From positions 62,001-126,000 of the forward strand of contig NZ_JABFAM010000011.1 of NCBI RefSeq assembly GCF_013623775.1: DNA of 64,000 nt, in the 5' to 3' direction. Each line of letters opens with the position of its first letter. Position 1 is the first letter of the stretch. Source of the DNA: Rufibacter sp. XAAS-G3-1. Lineage in GTDB: Bacteria > Bacteroidota > Bacteroidia > Cytophagales > Hymenobacteraceae. Shown here one piece after another: positions 51,261 to 62,558 of this stretch. Under the pieces are notes generated by a model. It did not search any database. It was not told the origin of the DNA and saw nothing but the letters and a program-made list of their open reading frames with translations. Both the position numbers and the translations under genes were made by a program.

Positions 51261-52559
51261 TCAAAAAGCAATCTGAAACGTAGTCAGCCCATCGGCCCCG
51301 CTTTGTAGGGTAAACCGGAACCCGTGGTGCAGCAGAATCTCCCGCACCATGGTAAGCCCGATGCCCTGTCCGTTGGCTTTGGTGCTGAAGAACGGCGAGA
51401 ACAGCTTTTCCTGCACCTCTGGGGTGATGGGCTTCCCGTTGTCCTGAATCAGCAATTGCAGGGGCGAGGCGGTGGTTTTTACACATACCCAACCGCCTTC
51501 CTCCGTTGCCTCCAGCGCATTCTTCACCACGTTAATCAACACCTGTTCCATCTGCTGCACATCCAACTCTACAAACGGTATCTGCTCTGCCAAATCCCAC
51601 TCCCATTTCACTTGCTTCCGTTCAAAACTGGGCAACATTAACCGATGGATGCTGTGCAACAACTGATGTAGGTCGGTGGGGTGCTTCACCGGTGGCGGAA
51701 TCCGGACTACATTGGCGAAATTAGCCATGAAACCGGCCAGGTTCTGATTGCGCGTAATGCAGACTTGCAGCGCCTCGTCAAAGTCTGGGCGGGAGTCTGC
51801 AGTGAGCTGGCGCGAGAAATACGAGAAAGAGTGCAGGATGGAATTGACGGCCCCAATGGAGTTATTAATCTCATGCGACATCATCCTGATCAGTTTCTCG
51901 TAGGCGTTGCGCTCTTTCTCCAGCAGTTCCTGCGTAAGTTCCTCCACCAGAATGAAGTAGCGGTGGTAGCCTCGGTCCAGGAACCGGATTTTGCGGCAGC
52001 GGTACGTCTGGATGCCGTTGGGCCTAATCACGCGCTGCTCGTCCTTGGGTAGTTTCCCTAGGGAGCTTCCCCAGTGACTGGGCAATTCCTCCAGCGGTTT
52101 GCCCACTACTTCTTTCCCCGAGGTTTGTAGCAGCACGGCCGCCGCGGGGTTCAGGCCCGCCACTCGGTCATGCGTGTCCAGCAGAATGATGCCGGAGGGC
52201 GAGGCTTCAATCAGGCGCTCCAGCAGGAAATGTTTCTCGGTTTGGGTGACGCGCTGTTGCCGCAGCTCGTCCATCATCTGGTTATACACGGCAATGAGTT
52301 GGTCTACCTCTTTCTGGCCCGTTTCCAGGAATTTGATGGAAAAATCGCGGTCTCTGATAGATTCCACGCCCGCGGCGATGAGGTGGAGCGGCCGCACAAA
52401 CGCGGTGAAAAGCCGGGCCGTGAGCACCAGACTGACCAGAATCAGCGCCTCGGCGGCCACAAACATGGCTTTGTTGTACGCGAGCAGTTGCCAGGCCAAC
52501 ACGAACATAGCGGCATACAGCAGCGCCGCCGTTAAAATAAACTTACTCCGCAGCGTCAT
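51261..52559 (-). CDS. membrane sensor histidine kinase of the export locus
   Basis: 432 residues. Two N-terminal helices with almost no loop between them (FILTAALLYAAMFVLAWQLL and FVAAEALILVSLVLTARLFT), so it probably senses within the membrane or cytosol. Then HAMP (PLHLIAAGVESIRDRDFSIK), PAS (ASPSGIILLDTHDRVAGLNP), HisKA with MMSHEINNSIGAV and HATPase with NVVKNALEATEEGG and GQGIGLTMV. It overlaps the response regulator gene by 17 nt in another frame, so the two are made together. The ATG at 52559 was taken because it precedes the first helix. Confidence 0.92.
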   Translation of the reverse strand: MTLRSKFILTAALLYAAMFVLAWQLLAYNKAMFVAAEALILVSLVLTARLFTAFVRPLHLIAAGVESIRDRDFSIKFLETGQKEVDQLIAVYNQMMDELRQQRVTQTEKHFLLERLIEASPSGIILLDTHDRVAGLNPAAAVLLQTSGKEVVGKPLEELPSHWGSSLGKLPKDEQRVIRPNGIQTYRCRKIRFLDRGYHRYFILVEELTQELLEKERNAYEKLIRMMSHEINNSIGAVNSILHSFSYFSRQLTADSRPDFDEALQVCITRNQNLAGFMANFANVVRIPPPVKHPTDLHQLLHSIHRLMLPSFERKQVKWEWDLAEQIPFVELDVQQMEQVLINVVKNALEATEEGGWVCVKTTASPLQLLIQDNGKPITPEVQEKLFSPFFSTKANGQGIGLTMVREILLHHGFRFTLQSGADGLTTFQIAF

Positions 52560-53925
52560 ACGGGATATTGAACTTCTCCAGCCTACGGTACAGCGAACCA
52601 CGGCTCACGCCCAACGCTTTGGCTACCTTGCTCACGTTGTTGCTATAATGCGCCATGGACTTCTTGATCATATTGGCTTCCAACTCATCCAGGGTCATGG
52701 CTCCTACCGAGGGGAGCAGTTTCTCGTCCAGTTTTCTAGAACCGCCCTGCAACTGGTTCTGGAAATCCTCTACCTCCAGCAGACTTTTCCCCGAGACCAG
52801 CACCGTACGCTCCACCAGGTTCTTCAACTCCCTAATGTTGCCCGGCAAAGGAAGTTCACGCAGCCATTTCAGGGCTTTGGTGCTCACCTGCAGTTCCTGT
52901 TTATGGTACGTTTTTTTCAAATTGTTCACAAAATGCTGCACCAGCCGCGGAATGTCCTGGCTCCGCTCGCGAAGCGCGGGCAACTTCACCGTAATCAGGT
53001 TGATTCTATAATATAGGTCTTCCCGGAACTTCCCTTCGGCCACCATTTCCTGCAGGTGGCGGTTGGTGGCGCAGACCACGCGTATGTCCAGGTTCTTGGA
53101 ACGGCTGTCGCCGAGGACTTCATAGGTGCGGTCTTGGAGTACGCGCAACAGTTTCACCTGGCTGCTCATGTCCAGTTCACCAATCTCGTCCAGGAAAATG
53201 GTGCCTTTGTTCGCCATCTCAAAGCGGCCCACCCGGTCGGTCTTGGCATCAGTGAAGGCGCCGCGGCGGTGCCCGAACATCTCGCTCTCAAACAAGCTCG
53301 CCGAAATTCCGCCCAAGTTCACTTTCACAAACGGCGCTTTCCGGCGATGGCTGTTCCGGTGGATGGCTTCGGCGATGAGTTCCTTGCCCGTACCGCTATC
53401 GCCTTCAATGAGCACCGAGGCGTCTGTGGCACTGATTTGGCCGATGTTGCGGAGCACCTGCAACAGGCCGGGGTCTTCGCCCACTAGCATGGAGAAATCG
53501 TACTGCTCATCCAGCTGCTTGCGGGTTAATTTTCCGGAAGGAACCTCGGCTATGGGCTGTGCCAGTTCCAACGCGGTTTTGATGGATTGCAGCAGATGCT
53601 CGTTGTTCCAGGGTTTGGTGATAAAATCGGCCGCGCCGCCTTTTAAGCCTTCCACTGCCAGGTTAATGGAACCCCAGCCCGTGATGAGAATAACCGGAAG
53701 GGCCGGGTACAGTTGCTTCAGTTTGCCTAGTAGTTGCAGGCCGTCTTCTCCGGTGGTTTCCATGGAGAAGTTCATGTCCATGAGGGCCAATTGGGGCATC
53801 TGCTTGGCGGCAAGTTGCAAGGCTTCCACGGGGCCGACCGCTTGGGCCGTGGCGTACCCGGCTTGTTTGAGCAACAAACTTAAAGAAGCCCGTACGGCTA
53901 CGTCATCGTCAATAATCAGGATCAT
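52543..53925 (-). CDS. NtrC-family sigma-54-dependent response regulator
   Basis: 460 residues. Receiver domain (MILIIDDDVAVR, phospho-acceptor Asp in LALMDMNFSMETTG, Lys in FITKPWN), AAA+ domain (GDSGTGKELIAEAIH Walker A, FLDEIGELDMSSQVKLLRVLQ Walker B) and Fis-type helix-turn-helix (VSKVAKALGVSRGSLYRRLEKF). The sigma-54 contact loop reads GAFTDA in place of GAFTGA, a variant I have seen often in Bacteroidota. It should activate sigma-54 promoters when phosphorylated by the adjoining kinase; the best target in the window is upstream of the adaptor gene at 60.18 kb. Confidence 0.95.
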   Translation of the reverse strand: MILIIDDDVAVRASLSLLLKQAGYATAQAVGPVEALQLAAKQMPQLALMDMNFSMETTGEDGLQLLGKLKQLYPALPVILITGWGSINLAVEGLKGGAADFITKPWNNEHLLQSIKTALELAQPIAEVPSGKLTRKQLDEQYDFSMLVGEDPGLLQVLRNIGQISATDASVLIEGDSGTGKELIAEAIHRNSHRRKAPFVKVNLGGISASLFESEMFGHRRGAFTDAKTDRVGRFEMANKGTIFLDEIGELDMSSQVKLLRVLQDRTYEVLGDSRSKNLDIRVVCATNRHLQEMVAEGKFREDLYYRINLITVKLPALRERSQDIPRLVQHFVNNLKKTYHKQELQVSTKALKWLRELPLPGNIRELKNLVERTVLVSGKSLLEVEDFQNQLQGGSRKLDEKLLPSVGAMTLDELEANMIKKSMAHYSNNVSKVAKALGVSRGSLYRRLEKFNIPYDAAE

Positions 53926-53950
53926 GGGTTTGGGAGCGGATAGGTGAAGG

Positions 53951-53991
53951 TAGCGTTTTTAAGCCGTTTTTGAAAAAACAGCCACTAAACG
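53951..53991. repeat. palindromic element PE24
   Basis: TAGCGTTTTTAAGCCGTTTT then GAAAAAACAGCCACTAAACG. It is the first of a pair between the permease and regulator genes, 25 nt upstream of the regulator ATG. Confidence 0.75.
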
Positions 53992-54088: not shown

Positions 54089-55273
54089 TTACTCCTCGTG
54101 CAGGGCCACCGCCGGATGTATTTTAGCCGCTTGCCAGCTGGGGTACACTGCGCAGACAATGACCAGCAGGAAGATAAGGAGGGCAGCTGCGCCGATGCCT
54201 TGCCAGTAAATCTCTGCCGAAAGCTGAAACACGTGCAGCAGCGGGAACTGCGCCGCCAGCAGAAGCCCCAGCAGCAGCCCGAAGGTGGCCATCACCAGCA
54301 CCTCGCCCACAAACTGGTTCCGGATTTGTCTGGTGGTAGCACCCAGCGCCCGGCGCAGGCCAATCTCTGAGTAGCGGCGGTTGATATTGTACCAGAGCAC
54401 CCCAAATAATCCCAGGGCCACGTTGAAAATCAAAAAACCGCACACCACGGCCATGGCCATCATGGGCACCCACGTCAACTTGGCTTTGCTTTGGCGCATT
54501 TTCTCCAAGGTGGTCACCTCAATAGTCCAGTCTTTGGCGATGCGCGAGAGGTCTTTCACCATCTTCTCCTCAAAAACCACGTCGGCGCCCGGTTTCACCT
54601 TGATGAGCAAGCTGGCATACAGCTGATCGGGCTTGGCTTTCTCCAGATTGATGCGCCGGAAAAGCGCGGGTTCCTCCACGGCAAACTCGCTGTCGGCGCG
54701 GTAATGGGGCATCACGCCCACCACGGTATAACTGGTAGAATCATCCCCCTTGATTTGTTTGCCCAGCGCTTCTTCCTCGCCAAAAAGCTGGTCTTTCAAC
54801 ACCTGGTTGATGACTACGGAGGCATGGAGCGCAGCGGCATCCTGCGGCCCGAACCACCGCCCCTGGTCTACCGACAACTGGAAGACGTCTTTGTAGGCAT
54901 CCTGCACCTCGTAATTGTTGGTTTCCACAGATTCTTTGTTCCCGTAAGAAACATCTATGCTCCAGCTGCTAAACGCAAAGGGCACGTTGTTGTGGGCCAG
55001 AGAAGCCGCCTCCACCTCAGGGAAAGATTTAAGGCGTTGTATCATCTGCTCCTGTATGGCCTTGGCCTGCCCCACTGAATCTGCATTGGGCCGGAAGGAT
55101 AGCTGCCATACGTTCTGGTGGTTAAGGCCCAGCGGTTTCTTATAGTTATGGTAGTTGTAGAGCACAAAGCTGATGACCGCAAACAGCACCATGAACGAAA
55201 AGAACATTTCAGTGATGAGCAGGAAGTTGCTTTTCTTCCGGTTCCAGATCAGTTTAAATAAATGGCGTATCAT
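54089..55273 (-). CDS. ABC transporter permease, MacB/FtsX type (second copy)
   Basis: 394 residues. One N-terminal helix (FLLITEMFFSFMVLFAVISF), a large periplasmic MacB-like core domain and three C-terminal helices with the FtsX pattern (NRRYSEIGLRRALGATTRQI). It begins 4 nt before the end of the first permease gene (ATGA-type overlap), so the two are translationally coupled and probably form a heterodimer instead of the usual MacB homodimer. Confidence 0.92.
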   Translation of the reverse strand: MIRHLFKLIWNRKKSNFLLITEMFFSFMVLFAVISFVLYNYHNYKKPLGLNHQNVWQLSFRPNADSVGQAKAIQEQMIQRLKSFPEVEAASLAHNNVPFAFSSWSIDVSYGNKESVETNNYEVQDAYKDVFQLSVDQGRWFGPQDAAALHASVVINQVLKDQLFGEEEALGKQIKGDDSTSYTVVGVMPHYRADSEFAVEEPALFRRINLEKAKPDQLYASLLIKVKPGADVVFEEKMVKDLSRIAKDWTIEVTTLEKMRQSKAKLTWVPMMAMAVVCGFLIFNVALGLFGVLWYNINRRYSEIGLRRALGATTRQIRNQFVGEVLVMATFGLLLGLLLAAQFPLLHVFQLSAEIYWQGIGAAALLIFLLVIVCAVYPSWQAAKIHPAVALHEE

Positions 55274-56511
55274 TTGGAGCCTCCTCTCAATGCCTCAACG
55301 GCGTGTAAACGTGACATTTTAAAAGCGGGGTACACCCCAGAAATCAACCCGAACACCAGGCACAGGAACAGCCCCCAGGCAAACACCCGCAGATTCAACC
55401 CCAGTTGCGCGTAGATGATAATGCCGCTGTCATTGATCAGCGCCAGCACCCCCGCCGAGAGTAGAAAGCCCAGCAAGCCCCCTAAGAGCGTCAGGAAAAC
55501 GTTCTCCACCACAAACTGCCCGATGATGGTATTGGACGAGGCCCCAAACGCCTTGCGCACGCCAATTTCAGAAGCCCGTTCCATGATGCGGCTAATGTTG
55601 ATGTTCACCAAGTTGATGGTAGGCAAAAGCATGAACAGAAAGGCCGCCAGCGCTAACATGGTGTACAGAAAACCTACTTTGTCTTCTTTGCCGCTGCCTA
55701 AGAAGTTACGGGCGAAACTTTCCAGGATGGTATCTGGGTAGGAGTGCACCTGCTTCTTTTCTTTGGGGTTCAGTTGGCTCACCTGCTGGATGATGCGGGC
55801 GTATTCTTCCTTTATCTTAGGAATGTCTGCCGCTTGCCGGGCTTTGATGGTGGCAAAATAACCGCCTCGCAGCCCGGTGTCTTTAAAATCCTGGCTTTTG
55901 AGGGTGATGGGTACCCAGACATCGGCGTACGATTGTATTCTCAGTACCGGCACGTCTTCCACCACGCCTATGACCCGGTATTTCACCTGGTCTACCTCAA
56001 TGGTCTGCCCCAGGGCCGGGCCCGTCCCGAAGTAGTTCTTGCGGGTAGTTTGGTTGATCACGGCCACCCGGCTGGCGTTCTTCACCTCCAGCGCCCCAAA
56101 AGGGTTCCCCTCCAGAAAATGGAAGTCTAGAATCTCCCAGAACTGCTGGTCTGTGTGCTTAATGTCCAGCGCCAGCTTTTTGTTATGGATGTAGCTGTTC
56201 ACCGGATTGAACACTGAATTGATGGAGACTTTCTCGGGCGTTTGCATGCGCCGCACATACCGGTCCAGGAAATAATAGCTGGGCGGGCCGCTGCTGGAGT
56301 AGCCTTCGCCCTGTTCTTCGCGAAGATTGTTCACAAACAGCAACCGGTCGGTTCCCCGCTCCGGCATCTGCGGCCCGAACACGTGATCAAAAAGCGAAGT
56401 CACCACCATGAGCACCATCAAGGTGAAACTGATGCCGAAGAGGCTGATAAAGGTGAAGAACTTGCGGCGTTGCAGCACCGCCCAGGCTATTTTGAAGTAA
56501 TTTTTTAACAT
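55270..56511 (-). CDS. ABC transporter permease, MacB/FtsX type (first copy)
   Basis: 413 residues with the same architecture as its neighbour: N-terminal helix (FFTFISLFGISFTLMVLMVV), extracytoplasmic core, and three C-terminal helices after MERASEIGVRKAFGASSNTI, ending in VYPAFKMSRLHAVEALRGG. It starts 11 nt after the ATPase gene. Type VII ABC systems of this kind do not pump through the membrane but drive periplasmic substrates toward TolC by mechanotransmission. Confidence 0.92.
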   Translation of the reverse strand: MLKNYFKIAWAVLQRRKFFTFISLFGISFTLMVLMVVTSLFDHVFGPQMPERGTDRLLFVNNLREEQGEGYSSSGPPSYYFLDRYVRRMQTPEKVSINSVFNPVNSYIHNKKLALDIKHTDQQFWEILDFHFLEGNPFGALEVKNASRVAVINQTTRKNYFGTGPALGQTIEVDQVKYRVIGVVEDVPVLRIQSYADVWVPITLKSQDFKDTGLRGGYFATIKARQAADIPKIKEEYARIIQQVSQLNPKEKKQVHSYPDTILESFARNFLGSGKEDKVGFLYTMLALAAFLFMLLPTINLVNINISRIMERASEIGVRKAFGASSNTIIGQFVVENVFLTLLGGLLGFLLSAGVLALINDSGIIIYAQLGLNLRVFAWGLFLCLVFGLISGVYPAFKMSRLHAVEALRGGSK

Positions 56512-56522
56512 GGCCGTACCGG

Positions 56523-57215
56523 TTAAATCTGTGCTTCCAATACCAATGAATCTGCCACCTGCTGGCCGTCAAAGAACCGGATGAGCCGGTTGGTCTTGTG
56601 GGCCATGTGCTCATCATGCGTCACCATCACAATAGTGGTGCCTTCCTCGCGGTTCAGGCGCAGCAGAATCTCCATGATTTCCTCGCCCATCACGCTGTCC
56701 AGGTTCCCGGTAGGCTCATCCGCTAAGATAATCTCCGGGGCACCGGCCAAGGCCCGGGCAATGGCCACCCGCTGCCGCTGTCCACCCGATAACTGACTCG
56801 GAAAATGCCGCGTGCGGGTACTCAGACCCACTTTCTCCAGCGCCGCCAGAGCCCGCTTGCGCCGCTCCCCGCCCGATATGTTGCGGTACAGCAAAGGCAG
56901 CTCCACGTTGTCCACTACAGACAAATCATGAATCAAATGGTAACTCTGGAACACAAACCCAATCTTCTCATTGCGCAGTTTGGCCAGTTGCTTGTCTGAA
57001 TGCGTTTTCACCGGCTGCCCGTCTATGGACACCACCCCGGAAGTAGGTTCATCCAGCAGGCCCATGATGTTGAGCAGCGTAGATTTCCCGCAGCCCGAGG
57101 GGCCCATGATGGACACAAACTCGCCGCGCTCTACGTGCAGATTCACGCGGTTGAGGGCTACCGTTTCAATGGTCTTGGTGCGGTAGACTTTTTCAATGTC
57201 TTGTAACTGTATCAT
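56523..57215 (-). CDS. ABC transporter ATPase, LolD/MacB type
   Basis: 230 residues. Walker A GPSGCGKSTLLNIMG, Q-loop FVFQSYHLIHDLS, signature LSGGQRQRVAIARAL, Walker B IILADEPTGNLDS and H-loop VMVTHDEHMA. It powers the two permeases encoded after it. The gap to the upstream TolC gene is 191 nt and contains two palindromic elements. Confidence 0.95.
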   Translation of the reverse strand: MIQLQDIEKVYRTKTIETVALNRVNLHVERGEFVSIMGPSGCGKSTLLNIMGLLDEPTSGVVSIDGQPVKTHSDKQLAKLRNEKIGFVFQSYHLIHDLSVVDNVELPLLYRNISGGERRKRALAALEKVGLSTRTRHFPSQLSGGQRQRVAIARALAGAPEIILADEPTGNLDSVMGEEIMEILLRLNREEGTTIVMVTHDEHMAHKTNRLIRFFDGQQVADSLVLEAQI

Positions 57216-57406: not shown

Positions 57407-58888
57407 TCATTTCTCCGCCAGCAGCGGCACGCCGCGTTCAAAGTCATATAAAGTAAGGGCCCGGAGGCGGTAATAGGCTATCCAGAAATCCTGCAGGGCG
57501 GCAATATAGGCGCGGCGGGCCTGGTCTTTTTCCTGGAGCGCGATGTTCAGGTCGGTGATGCTGATGCGGCCTACCAGGAAGGTAGCCTTGGTGATGTCAT
57601 AGCGTTCTTGGGCAATGGAATCGGCGGAGGCGGTAATCTGGAGGCGCGTTTTGAGGAGGTCTATCTGGTTTACCTGCGTGAACACGCTCTGCTCAAAGGC
57701 GGTCTGCTCCTGCTCCACGGTGTACTGCGTCAATTGCAGCTGCGCCTGGGCTGTTTTCACGCTCGCCTTCTGCCGGCCCCAATCCACGATAGGCACGTTG
57801 AAGCCTAACATGACTTGCTGCTGGTTTTCGGGTTGGGCGTAGCTTTCAGAGAAGTTGCTGGCGCTTTTCGTGAGCCCGAAGGTGGCGTACAAATCGGCGT
57901 TGAAGCCGCCTTTGCCACGGGCTTGGGCTACTTCCTGCTGGGCCTGCAGCACTTTTCGCTCGTACAGGAAACGTTCTTTTCGGTTCATACGGGCCTGCTC
58001 CAGGGCGGCTTGTTCGTTCACTTCCAAAGCCGGAACATGGTTGGGCGCCAGCACCGCTACTTTTTCGCCCTGCGGCAAGCCCACATAAGCGGCGAACTGC
58101 AGGACTACGGTTTTCAGCTCCGTAGAAGCTTGCGCCTGGGCTAGTTGCGCGTTCATCAGGCTGAGTTGCAGTTGCAGGAGTTCGTTTTTGGATAATCGGC
58201 CCAGCCGAAACTTTTCTTCGGCCACCTTGAACAGGGCCTGGTTGTTTTCCACGTTTTTGGAGGCAATCTCATAATTCACCTGTTGCAGCAGCACGTCAAA
58301 GAACCGTTGCGTAGCGGTGGTCGCCAGCGTTTCGCGGTCTTCCAGGTACTGCCGCTCCGATTCCTGAAAGCGCAAGGGCTCTACTTTCTTGTTCCAGGCC
58401 AGGGCATTGTAGCCGAAGATGGGTTGCTTGAACCCGATGACGGCCGGGAAAGAATTGTAGCGCCGAACGCCTTGGTTGAAATCATCGAACCGCTGGCTTT
58501 GCGAGGAGATGAACACCTGTCCGCCCGTAAGCCCCACCGCCTGGCTTACCGACAAAGCCAAATCAGAATTACTGATAGACACGGCCCTGAAATCGGTGGT
58601 GCCATCGGGCTGAATCACGGGTACAATGCTGCGGGAGAAATCTGGCAAAGTGCCGCTGAGCGTAAGGTGCGGCCGGTAATCTGCTTTGAACGTGCGGTAC
58701 TCCCAATAGCGGCTGGTTTTGTTCGTGCTGGCCTGCTTGGCGGCTATAGAGGAAGAAAGCGCGAGGTCAATGGTTTCCTGCAGCGTTAGTTGGCGGGCAA
58801 ATTGGGAGTTGGAGGAGTTGGTTTGGGCCTGCGCCAGAGGTGCGCTGAACAAACTCACCCACACTATATATAATAGAGTCTTTTTCAT
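57407..58888 (-). CDS. TolC-family outer-membrane efflux protein
   Basis: 493 residues with a signal peptide (cleavage after LAQAQ). Two outer membrane efflux repeats are recognisable: LTLQETIDLALSSSIAAKQA at the start and the second with LNIALQEKDQARRAYIAALQ near the end, with long helices between. It forms the trimeric exit duct. It lies 12 nt after the adaptor gene. Confidence 0.93.
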   Translation of the reverse strand: MKKTLLYIVWVSLFSAPLAQAQTNSSNSQFARQLTLQETIDLALSSSIAAKQASTNKTSRYWEYRTFKADYRPHLTLSGTLPDFSRSIVPVIQPDGTTDFRAVSISNSDLALSVSQAVGLTGGQVFISSQSQRFDDFNQGVRRYNSFPAVIGFKQPIFGYNALAWNKKVEPLRFQESERQYLEDRETLATTATQRFFDVLLQQVNYEIASKNVENNQALFKVAEEKFRLGRLSKNELLQLQLSLMNAQLAQAQASTELKTVVLQFAAYVGLPQGEKVAVLAPNHVPALEVNEQAALEQARMNRKERFLYERKVLQAQQEVAQARGKGGFNADLYATFGLTKSASNFSESYAQPENQQQVMLGFNVPIVDWGRQKASVKTAQAQLQLTQYTVEQEQTAFEQSVFTQVNQIDLLKTRLQITASADSIAQERYDITKATFLVGRISITDLNIALQEKDQARRAYIAALQDFWIAYYRLRALTLYDFERGVPLLAEK

Positions 58889-58900
58889 GGTCAGCGCGGG

Positions 58901-60151
58901 TTAGTCTTCAGACAAGTGAATTTCCTTCAGTTGCGCGTACTCCTTGGTGTTGGAGAGGATAATCTGCTCGCCCGCGGCGATGTCGCCCTGCAGTTCCACG
59001 AAGTCGAGGTTGGAGGCTCCAGTTTTCAAGGTTCGGCGGATAGCCTTGTCACCCTGCACCACAAACACCGCCTGCTCTGGGGCTCCGGTAAAGAAAGGGC
59101 CGTTTTTCACACGCCGCACGTTGGGCTTGAAATCAGTGAGCACGAACACTTCTACCCGCAGGTTGGAGCGCAAGGCTTGGTGATTTTTCTCCTGCAGGCG
59201 CACATAGAAGGTGATGATGCCGTTCTCCACTTTGGGCTGCACGTTGGCTACTTCGCCGCGCAAATCAACGTCATTCACCCGCACCGTAACGGGGCCACCT
59301 ACTTTCACTTGCTCGGCGTAGGTGTCTGCGATGGTGGCTTTGATTTTGAAGCTGCTCAGGTCGGCTACGCGAGCCAGCGGGTCACCGGCGTTCACGGTGG
59401 CGCCCACTTCTTCGTTCACCCACGTGACTACGCCTTTGCGCACGGCTTTGACATCGGCCTGGGCCAGTTGCCGCTCTAGTTGCCCGATGTCGCGGCGTTG
59501 CATTTCCAGCTCAAAGCCTACCTCTCTTCGGCCAATCTGGGCGGCGGCTTGTTCATCTTTGATTTGGCGTTGCAGTTGGGCCAGTTCCAGGGTGGCTACT
59601 TTCAAGTCCAGTTCGGCTTTTTTCACGTTTTCCTGGGTGCCGCCGCCAATGGAGAGCAGGTATTGTTCGTCGGCGAGCGCCGCCTGCAGGCTTTTCACGC
59701 GCACTTCCTGCACGGCATAGCGGGAGCGGAGTTGGTTCACGTTCTTTTGGAGGTCGTTTTCCAGCTTGGCCGTTTTGTTTTGCTTCAACTGCTGCTCATC
59801 GCGGAGTTTCTCAAATGCCGTCTGGGAAGTCTGCTTGTCCAGCAACAACAGCGGCTCACCGGCGGCCACATGGTCGCCGGGGGTGTGCAGCACGCGCTCA
59901 ATCTGCGCCTGGATGGGGCTGGCGATGACCTCTTCGTTTTCTGGCACCACGGTTCCCGTCGCCGTCAGCGAAGCTTCTACCGCTCCCACTTCCACCGTCG
60001 CGAACCGCAGCTCAGATTTGGACACCCGGGTCTCCAGCACCGACCGGAACGCCAGCACGCTCAGCAGCACCGCTACGGCAACCATGCCACCTTGTATCCA
60101 GCGGCGGCGCTCGGCTTTCTGTACTACGGCTTGGGATAATTCTCTGTCCAT
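58901..60151 (-). CDS. periplasmic adaptor (HlyD/MacA-like) of the export locus
   Basis: 416 residues. One N-terminal helix (GGMVAVAVLLSVLAFRSVL), biotinyl-lipoyl half motifs (ATGTVVPENEEVIASPIQAQ with PGDHVAAGEPLLLLD; then KGVVTWVNEEVGATVNAGDP), a long coiled-coil hairpin (residues about 115-225) and a beta-barrel domain. It bridges the inner-membrane ABC part and TolC. I chose the ATG at 60151 since the upstream 27 codons lack family features and include the sigma-54 promoter. Confidence 0.92.
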   Translation of the reverse strand: MDRELSQAVVQKAERRRWIQGGMVAVAVLLSVLAFRSVLETRVSKSELRFATVEVGAVEASLTATGTVVPENEEVIASPIQAQIERVLHTPGDHVAAGEPLLLLDKQTSQTAFEKLRDEQQLKQNKTAKLENDLQKNVNQLRSRYAVQEVRVKSLQAALADEQYLLSIGGGTQENVKKAELDLKVATLELAQLQRQIKDEQAAAQIGRREVGFELEMQRRDIGQLERQLAQADVKAVRKGVVTWVNEEVGATVNAGDPLARVADLSSFKIKATIADTYAEQVKVGGPVTVRVNDVDLRGEVANVQPKVENGIITFYVRLQEKNHQALRSNLRVEVFVLTDFKPNVRRVKNGPFFTGAPEQAVFVVQGDKAIRRTLKTGASNLDFVELQGDIAAGEQIILSNTKEYAQLKEIHLSED

Positions 60152-60179
60152 TTTCTTACACGTTTGACAGCAGAGGTTA

Positions 60180-60196
60180 TCCAAGCGACGTGCCAA
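60180..60196 (-). promoter_or_regulatory. sigma-54 (-24/-12) promoter of the export locus
   Basis: Minus-strand TTGGCACGTCGCTTGGA matches the TGGCACG-N4-TTGC consensus at every position but the last C of the -12 part. It lies 29 nt upstream of the adaptor ATG. Confidence 0.75.
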
Positions 60197-60248
60197 TATG
60201 TAATAAATTGATTTACAAGTGTTTACACACAAGAATCACAATCAAAAC

Positions 60249-60280
60249 TGTCCAGTTGTGGACACCTATTCCAGTTGTGG
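60249..60280. promoter_or_regulatory. tandem dyad, probable enhancer site of the NtrC-type regulator
   Basis: A perfect dyad TGTCCA-GTTG-TGGACA (60249-60264) is followed by a half-conserved one, CCA-GTTG-TGG (60271-60280); the centres are 19 nt apart. They lie 50-85 nt upstream of the -24 element, where enhancer-binding proteins usually act. Confidence 0.6.
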
Positions 60281-60317
60281 TCAGATTTCATCGGCTTTGA
60301 TTCAATAGGTTTGGAAA

Positions 60318-61010: not shown

Positions 61011-62558
61011 TTGTTCCAGTTCCTGAACCCGGCGTGGTGGTGGGCCGCCGCCAGCGTGGCAGTGCCCATTGCCATTCACTTGTGGAATAAAAGGCCGCCC
61101 CGTACGGTTCTGGTAGGCAGCATCCGGTGGCTCCAACCTTCAGAGAGCCGGAAACTGAGCAGGCTGCGCCTTACCCAACCTTGGCTTTTGCTCCTGCGCT
61201 GCCTGCTTCTGGTTTTGCTTGCCGTGGTGTTAGCCAGTCCTTTTTGGAAGCACCAAGTTCCCGCCGTTCCGGGGAAACACGCCTACCTGCACCCCGAGCT
61301 GCTGCACTCCCGCTACCTCCCAGACATTGCCGCCACCGTAGATTCTTTAGCCCTGAAAGGCTGGCAAGTCCACCGTTTACAGCCTGGTTTCCCAAAACTG
61401 CCTCTAAACGTAGAAACCTCTATCCAAAACTTTCAAGCCGATAGGCTGCCTGCTGACACCACCAACGCCTGGGCCATGCTGCGCGTGCTTAACCGCAGCC
61501 TACCCGCCAACGCCCAAGCCTGGCTTTTCACCACCAATCTGCTCCGGCACCACCGCGGTGAACTTCCTACCATGCGCCCCGGCATCACCTGGGTTCCCGT
61601 AAGCGTACCCCAAACCAATACCTGGCTACAGGAAGCTTATTACACTACCTCGGGACAACTGCTGCTGCGTTTCGGGCAGAGCGATGGTCAAAACGTCACG
61701 TTTTCGGAAAGAAGAGTCCCCAAACCCGTCGCCGGACAAACCATTTCAGTGCCTGATGCACCCGCCGTCCGGTTTACTTCCCACGCCGCTGCGGATTCCC
61801 TGACCTTGCTAGACGGTGCCCGAAATTCTCTTCCGCTGGACAAACAGCCGCTGCGAGTGCTGGTACGTTTCTCAAAATTACGGCAAGCCGATGTCCGGTA
61901 CCTGCGGGCTGCTTTGCAAACGGCTCTGGACTACAAAGGCATCGCGTATAAACTGATCTCTTCCGCTGAAACCCAGCCGCTCCCGGCCTCGGCCCCGAGT
62001 TGGGTTTTCTGGCTAACCGATGAACTGCTCGCTCCCTTTTTGGCCCGTTTTCCGGAAAAGAGGCTGAAAACCCTGCAAGATGCCCCCACCGGTGACCGTA
62101 TCCAGAAAACAGAAAGCTGGCTGCAAATTCCCGGCATTTCACAGCCCGTGCCGCTGCACCAAAGGACTTCCGCCCCAGAGAAAGTCACCGCAGACATTCT
62201 CTGGCAAGACGGCGTCGGGAACCCCATGCTCACCCAGGAGCAGGACTCCCTTCAAACCCATTACCGTTTCTACAGCCGCTTTCACCCCACCTGGAACGAC
62301 TTGTCCAACAATGGACACTTCCCAGAACTGCTCCTGCGTCTGCTCTTCCCGGAAGAAACCTTCTGGCGCACGCGTTTTGACACCCGTACGCTGTTGCAAG
62401 AGATGGAACAGCCTCGGGCGTTTACCGGCTCCATTTCAGAAAACAGCCCTAAAACAGAGGAGATGCTGGATTTGAAGCCGTGGCTGGTGGCATTGTTGGC
62501 GTTTTTGCTGGGATTGGAACGGTGGTTGGCGGGAAGAAGAGCAAGGATTAATGCTTGA
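61011..62558 (+). CDS. BatA-type membrane protein carrying three in-frame palindromic elements
   Basis: 515 residues. The N-terminus (FLNPAWWWAAASVAVPIAIH, then RLTQPWLLLLRCLLLVLLAVVLAS) is the BatA N-terminal domain with two membrane helices; a final helix lies at LKPWLVALLAFLLGLERWL. The middle resembles the extracytoplasmic part of similar Bacteroidota proteins. No von Willebrand MIDAS motif was found. Palindromic elements lie in frame at residues about 121-133, 341-354 and 470-482, giving short basic peptides such as RFPEKRLKT and SISENSPKT. The start is TTG. The next gene is a DUF4175 protein, its usual neighbour. Function unknown. Confidence 0.82.
   Translation: MFQFLNPAWWWAAASVAVPIAIHLWNKRPPRTVLVGSIRWLQPSESRKLSRLRLTQPWLLLLRCLLLVLLAVVLASPFWKHQVPAVPGKHAYLHPELLHSRYLPDIAATVDSLALKGWQVHRLQPGFPKLPLNVETSIQNFQADRLPADTTNAWAMLRVLNRSLPANAQAWLFTTNLLRHHRGELPTMRPGITWVPVSVPQTNTWLQEAYYTTSGQLLLRFGQSDGQNVTFSERRVPKPVAGQTISVPDAPAVRFTSHAAADSLTLLDGARNSLPLDKQPLRVLVRFSKLRQADVRYLRAALQTALDYKGIAYKLISSAETQPLPASAPSWVFWLTDELLAPFLARFPEKRLKTLQDAPTGDRIQKTESWLQIPGISQPVPLHQRTSAPEKVTADILWQDGVGNPMLTQEQDSLQTHYRFYSRFHPTWNDLSNNGHFPELLLRLLFPEETFWRTRFDTRTLLQEMEQPRAFTGSISENSPKTEEMLDLKPWLVALLAFLLGLERWLAGRRARINA
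61373..61410. repeat. palindromic element PE29 inside a coding sequence
   Basis: CCGTTTACAGCCTGGTTTCC then CAAAACTGCCTCTAAACG, full length. It is read as HRLQPGFPKLPLNV in the BatA-like protein. Confidence 0.75.
62032..62072. repeat. palindromic element PE30 inside a coding sequence
   Basis: CTCCCTTTTTGGCCCGTTTT then CCGGAAAAGAGGCTGAAAAC. It is read as PFLARFPEKRLKTL; the left outer arm is degenerate. Confidence 0.7.
62418..62457. repeat. palindromic element PE31 inside a coding sequence
   Basis: GCGTTTACCGGCTCCATTTC then AGAAAACAGCCCTAAAACAG. It is read as AFTGSISENSPKTE, in the same frame relative to the element as PE30. Confidence 0.7.

Follow-up and report, generated by a model that had tools for sequence, protein, structure and literature searches.

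A conserved sigma-54 promoter module and a linked NtrC-type two-component system predicted to control an exporter operon in Rufibacter and related Hymenobacteraceae

An exporter operon of Rufibacter sp. XAAS-G3-1 is, with high probability, driven by a dedicated two-component sigma-54 circuit, in which the NtrC-type regulator and sensor kinase encoded at the end of the operon would act on a conserved module in front of its first gene. The window, i.e., the whole 64,000-nt stretch analyzed here (contig C72, positions 62001–126000, of a 5.3 Mb genome), carries the seven genes of this locus on the minus strand, in the order adaptor, TolC channel, ATPase, permease 1, permease 2, regulator, and kinase:

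58901–60151, minus strand: HlyD/RND-type periplasmic adaptor, operon gene 1 (HlyD_3, HlyD_D23; DarC-like but below cut-off)
57407–58888, minus strand: TolC-family outer-membrane channel (OEP, 1.7e-41)
56523–57215, minus strand: ABC ATPase of the LolD/MacB/DarD type (domain/profile matches)
55270–56511, minus strand: MacB/FtsX-type permease 1 (MacB_PCD and FtsX)
54089–55273, minus strand: MacB/FtsX-type permease 2 (MacB_PCD and FtsX)
52543–53925, minus strand: NtrC-type response regulator (receiver, AAA+ with a GAFTDA loop, Fis-type HTH)
51261–52601, minus strand: sensor kinase (two TM helices, very short loop, HAMP, PAS, HATPase)

An earlier, sequence-only reading had placed an NtrC-type activator and its kinase at the end of this strand, which direct reading bore out; the likely true start of the kinase is the ATG at 52556. 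The seven-gene order is kept in nearly all family loci, with the regulator and kinase at the operon end in every congener with a complete region and in nearly all other loci of the family.

The operon has the features of a MacAB-TolC type exporter, namely an adaptor, a MacB-like permease with a periplasmic core, an ATPase, and a TolC channel. It resembles both MacAB-TolC and the darobactin exporter DarBCD in its adaptor, LolD-like ATPase, MacB/FtsX permeases, and TolC channel, but differs from them in that the ATPase and the two permeases are separate genes here, and in that the matches to the curated Dar models fell below their cut-offs (DarD, 262 vs. 375 bits; DarC, 54 vs. 450; DarB, 18.5 vs. 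700). The permease pair (54089–56511) exists in two allele classes among the congeners (L037–L051), with 93–97% identity to the window in L037, L038, and L049 and about 75%/62–70% in the others, while the neighboring ATPase and regulator are 85–94% identical in nearly all congeners. Two identity classes of permeases beside such uniform neighbors suggest allelic replacement. A palindromic repeat about 45 bp long, CGTTTnnGGCCTGTTTTnnnnAAAACAGGCCnnAAACG, is also dispersed over the window in roughly a dozen copies (positions 1735, 3844, 17082, 20956, 35803, 47506, 47800, 51196, 53966, 54051, and 57270), several of which fall in gaps of the exporter operon.

Upstream of the adaptor gene lie four putative regulatory elements:

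60178–60195, minus strand: predicted sigma-54 promoter, TGGCACG-N4-TTGG-ATA, written TGGCACGTCGCTTGGATA (−24 perfect, −12 = TTGG)
60201–60213, minus strand: candidate IHF/HU-like site, AATCAATTTATTA (9/9 match to WATCAANNNNTTR)
60249–60264, minus strand: promoter-proximal activator dyad, TGTCCA-N4-TGGACA, written TGTCCACAACTGGACA (perfect 16-bp dyad, center about −88)
60268–60283, minus strand: distal, weaker activator dyad, TGACCA-CAAC-TGGAAT, written TGACCACAACTGGAAT, core CCANNNNTGG (imperfect)

The minus-strand promoter letters were read directly (TTGGCACGTCGCTTGGA at 60196–60180). The predicted promoter sits 27 nt 5′ of the adaptor ATG (at 60151), and since initiation is expected ~12 nt past the −12 element, the start is predicted near 60169. 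The −24/−12 promoter had been described as near-perfect, which is accurate for the −24 element and the standard spacing, but needs qualifying given the −12 element reads TTGG where the consensus is TTGC. The rpoN gene was sought in the genome and is present, with the RpoN box ARRTVAKYRE, and one HU/IHF-family protein is encoded as well.

Both of the tandem dyads reported upstream of the promoter are present, forming probable NtrC-type symmetric enhancer sites; the proximal dyad is perfect, whereas the distal one, centered 19 bp further upstream, is imperfect, with CTGNCCANNNNNNGGA conserved in congeners. Tandem dyads spaced 19 bp also occur in L128, L129, and L132. A search of the genome for the dyad paired with a −24/−12 promoter, as proposed in the earlier reading, recovered only this locus: the exact dyad occurs in three copies in 5.3 Mb, and the promoter adjoins only the copy here, with no comparable dyad-plus-promoter module at the other two (one on contig C36, one at window positions 62302–62317). 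The one-mismatch dyad sites in the genome likewise showed no comparable module, one of them having a promoter-like match just 18 nt away.

The conservation of these elements was followed by phylogenetic footprinting over a family set of 70 loci, in which adaptor identity goes as low as 43%. The loci are related to one another and non-independent, but the DNA around the sites has diverged. An adaptor homologue was found in 69 of 80 genomes in the family search. All 16 genomes of the Rufibacter group have one adaptor orthologue each, preceded by both dyads and the promoter, equally spaced throughout, and the mean column identity within Rufibacter was 0.93 in the dyad and 0.96 in the promoter, compared to 0.66 between them and 0.53 upstream. 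Across the family set, TGGCAY-N5-TTGG is exact in 67/70 loci and within one mismatch in 69/70, with TGGCA at −24 in 69/70. The TTG of the −12 element is invariant (70/70) at exact spacing and is followed by G instead of C in 69/70, and the distance from promoter to adaptor ATG is near-constant (23–34 nt). The proximal dyad shows a full 12/12 motif match in 65/70 loci (vs. 0.0003 of dinucleotide shuffles), at a distance from the promoter of 53 bp in Rufibacter and of 53, 55, or 65 bp in nearly all family loci. Between dyad and promoter, the IHF-like site stands at a fixed position, beginning 18–19 nt 5′ of the TGG in 46/70 loci, and scores at least 8 of 9 in 41/70, against 7.4 expected from shuffles, which points to an IHF/HU site.

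Outside the family, orthologous operons with a regulator and kinase were found in L174, L178, L185–L188, L191, and L192, where a dyad lies some 50–65 bp before a −24/−12 promoter; two of the homologous promoters in other families have the classical TTGC −12 element. The joint dyad–gap–promoter pattern gave 11 matches in 9 of 395 Bacteroidota genomes, compared to none for the reversed control. In about 18 Hymenobacter-type relatives, a second copy of the module stands within the operon, ahead of the ATPase gene, and the operon is often interrupted at this point by other genes inserted behind TolC. A second copy is what would be expected if both operon halves must obey one activator.

The gap between the TolC and ATPase genes is an insertion hot spot in Hymenobacter-type genomes (L098 to L126), holding up to 8.6 kb of unrelated inserts, including TonB receptors, sensor kinases, and a TIR-like domain protein (functions assigned by eye). 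A secreted lipoprotein of 350–380 a.a. with a GYWKNH motif recurs there in L111, L112, L113, and L122; the one examined (L112) had no Pfam match, and the protein could be an accessory or substrate of the exporter. The inserted genes were also considered as a clue to the substrate, which was dropped due to their varied contents.

Given that rpoN is present, that the regulator and kinase stay with the operon, and that the module tracks the operon into other families, it is very probable that the operon answers to the adjacent regulator via sigma-54, and the earlier proposal to this effect can be rated very likely from these comparisons. The description of the circuit as self-contained was too strong, as it depends on rpoN and probably on IHF/HU encoded elsewhere, and the regulator and kinase may have a housekeeping promoter of their own:

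53938–53954, minus strand: candidate housekeeping promoter element before the regulator gene, TACCTTCA (proposed from conservation)

Here, GYTACCTTCA is kept in most congeners while the rest of the gap diverges; the element reads TACCTTCA in most Rufibacter loci and TATNTTTATAC in another genus.

The regulator has the layout of a group I bEBP, with a receiver, an AAA+ sigma-54 domain, and a Fis-type HTH, and is paired with a kinase. Its sigma-54 contact loop reads GAFTDA in 62/63 family regulators and GSFTDA in one, in place of the standard GAFTGA. The same Gly-to-Asp change in NorR (G266D) kept open-complex activity and lost repression by the regulatory domain (PMC2941729). GAFTDA and the −12 G were examined for co-variation and showed none, with GAFTDA and TTGC found together in L185 and L186, and GAFTGA and TTGG in L178. 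The recognition helix contains SRAAL in one genus, where both dyad arms are altered symmetrically (TGTCCA to TGTTCA), and SRGAL or SRGSL otherwise in the family. A corresponding helix code (SRG with TGTCC, SRAAL with TGTTCA) holds within Hymenobacteraceae except for a few mixed dyads and fails outside, where SRAAL regulators lie near TGTCCG-type dyads; there is thus no general code, and a single clade event probably accounts for the SRAAL/TGTTCA pairing within Hymenobacteraceae.

The genome encodes six proteins that match sigma-54 activators strongly (the adjacent regulator and five others), and two of the others are kinase-paired, adjoin exporter or permease genes, and have related dyads. The first (L180, C25:143000–162999) comprises a regulator, a kinase, and a divergent adaptor–ATPase–permease set, with TGGCACAGCAATTGGCAG and the dyads TGTACGCCAGCGGACA and TGTTCAGCGGTGAACA; at the second (L181, C73:35000–54999), the regulator and kinase are joined by a divergent permease, and TGGCACTTCATTTGAC and TGTACGGAACCGTGCA are present. 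Each locus has its own dyad type, and both paralogues also have D in the contact loop. With two paralogous activators and related dyads, cross-talk is possible, and the module, while real, could be bound mainly by a different activator, e.g., the C25 paralogue, with the adjacent regulator acting elsewhere or jointly. The recognition helix of the C25 regulator is indeed similar (LSRASLYRRLE), as are the dyads at its locus. However, the C25 paralogue lies with an exporter and a module of its own, the exact TGTCCA dyad is paired with a promoter just once in the genome, and it is the adjacent regulator that accompanies the operon and module throughout the family and also in other families, which makes control by a paralogue improbable.

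We give still less credence to a reading of the dyad as an RNA hairpin (a terminator or attenuator) instead of a site for protein binding. In favor of a hairpin, GTTTTGATTG follows the dyad, which was listed as terminator-like, and the symmetric arm changes are compatible with RNA pairing as well; however, the hairpin would have six pairs and a poor T-run, the dyad is located upstream of the predicted start, and, as the upstream neighbor gene is divergent, a terminator would have no transcript to end, while the fixed spacing to the −24 element and the tandem 19-bp array suit dimers on DNA. Lastly, chance consensus matches can be set aside almost entirely: the −24/−12 pattern by itself is no commoner than its control in the genome (51 matches to TGGCAY-N5-TTGS vs. 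48 when reversed, most of those sampled inside ORFs, and genome-wide counts were dropped as a measure of the promoter for this lack of enrichment), but the conservation across 70 loci in the phylogenetic footprint, with the spacing and joint pattern, excludes a chance origin of promoter and dyad.

In the proposed circuit under the adjacent regulator, the kinase would phosphorylate the NtrC-type regulator, dimers of which would fill the tandem dyads, centered about 88 and 107 bp before the start, and build an AAA+ ring. Helped by a putative IHF/HU bend at 60201–60213, this ring would remodel the sigma-54 polymerase held at TGGCACG-N4-TTGG, turning on the adaptor gene and, presumably, the downstream TolC, ATPase, and permease genes; read-through would perhaps also switch on the regulator and kinase. 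The signal would most likely be a membrane-active or exported compound, sensed in the absence of a periplasmic domain.

In the kinase, a pair of predicted TM helices separated by few residues precedes HAMP, PAS, and kinase domains, a topology common to 9 of the 10 sequences checked (the tenth is a fragment). The suggestion in the earlier reading that an envelope signal induces export found no support in the kinase: no periplasmic sensor domain was found by domain and TM prediction, and the very short loop between the helices means that an extracytoplasmic ligand-binding domain is absent, so the signal may enter via the membrane, the PAS domain, or the transporter. Such a helix pair around a minimal extracytoplasmic loop also characterizes BceS-like intramembrane sensing, and Bce-type systems set a precedent for sensing through a transporter (PMC3023708). 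Like BceRS-BceAB of Firmicutes, the locus encodes an ABC transporter with a two-TM, very-short-loop kinase; unlike it, the regulator is a sigma-54 activator and the permeases are MacB-type, and transporter-based sensing by the kinase is proposed here by analogy.

The circuit follows a known style of gene control, of which it is a well-conserved case, and represents no new kind of system. As in the group I bEBP systems NtrC-glnA, ZraSR, and QseEF, a receiver-AAA+-Fis HTH regulator with a paired kinase is combined with tandem dyads about 90–110 bp upstream, a −24/−12 promoter, and an IHF-like site between, whereas the family-wide TTGG −12 element (69/70), the GAFTDA loop, and the exporter operon as target set it apart. 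No direct study of this circuit turned up in our literature searches. According to a 2025 PLoS One survey, sigma-54 promoters are predicted before COG0577 ABC permeases in Bacteroidia, a link for which the survey is, by its own account, the first evidence (PMC12316311). The survey, as far as its account of these permeases goes, concerns the same promoter class, the same bacterial class, and very likely the same FtsX-like permease family; what it gives is enrichment, whereas here the activator, dyads, spacing, IHF-like site, and operon are linked together. An earlier comparative study tied sigma-54 to the bacterial exterior generally (PMC3162934), and in Flavobacterium psychrophilum, the sigma-54 promoter of a gliding-motility operon was verified by mutagenesis and the predicted sigma-54 set includes envelope-stress genes (PMC9723704).

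A wider generalization, which we regard as doubtful, is that Bacteroidota have widespread dedicated exporter circuits, several per genome and with dyads that diverge; in each, the kinase, lacking a periplasmic sensor, would read the state of its MacB/FtsX-type transporter in a Bce-like manner and answer via a sigma-54 activator that, with its natural GAFTDA loop, would function at TTGG promoters. The circuit described here turns a statistical prediction, that of sigma-54 over Bacteroidia ABC permeases, into a concrete proposal with a named activator, operator, bend site, and promoter, and is conserved enough for genetic testing in culturable Hymenobacteraceae. With its conserved TTGG −12 element and GAFTDA loop, it also presents natural variants at the activator–sigma-54–DNA contact, a site that has mostly been explored through laboratory mutants. 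If the kinase does report on the transporter, Bce-like sensing would be extended to sigma-54 control.
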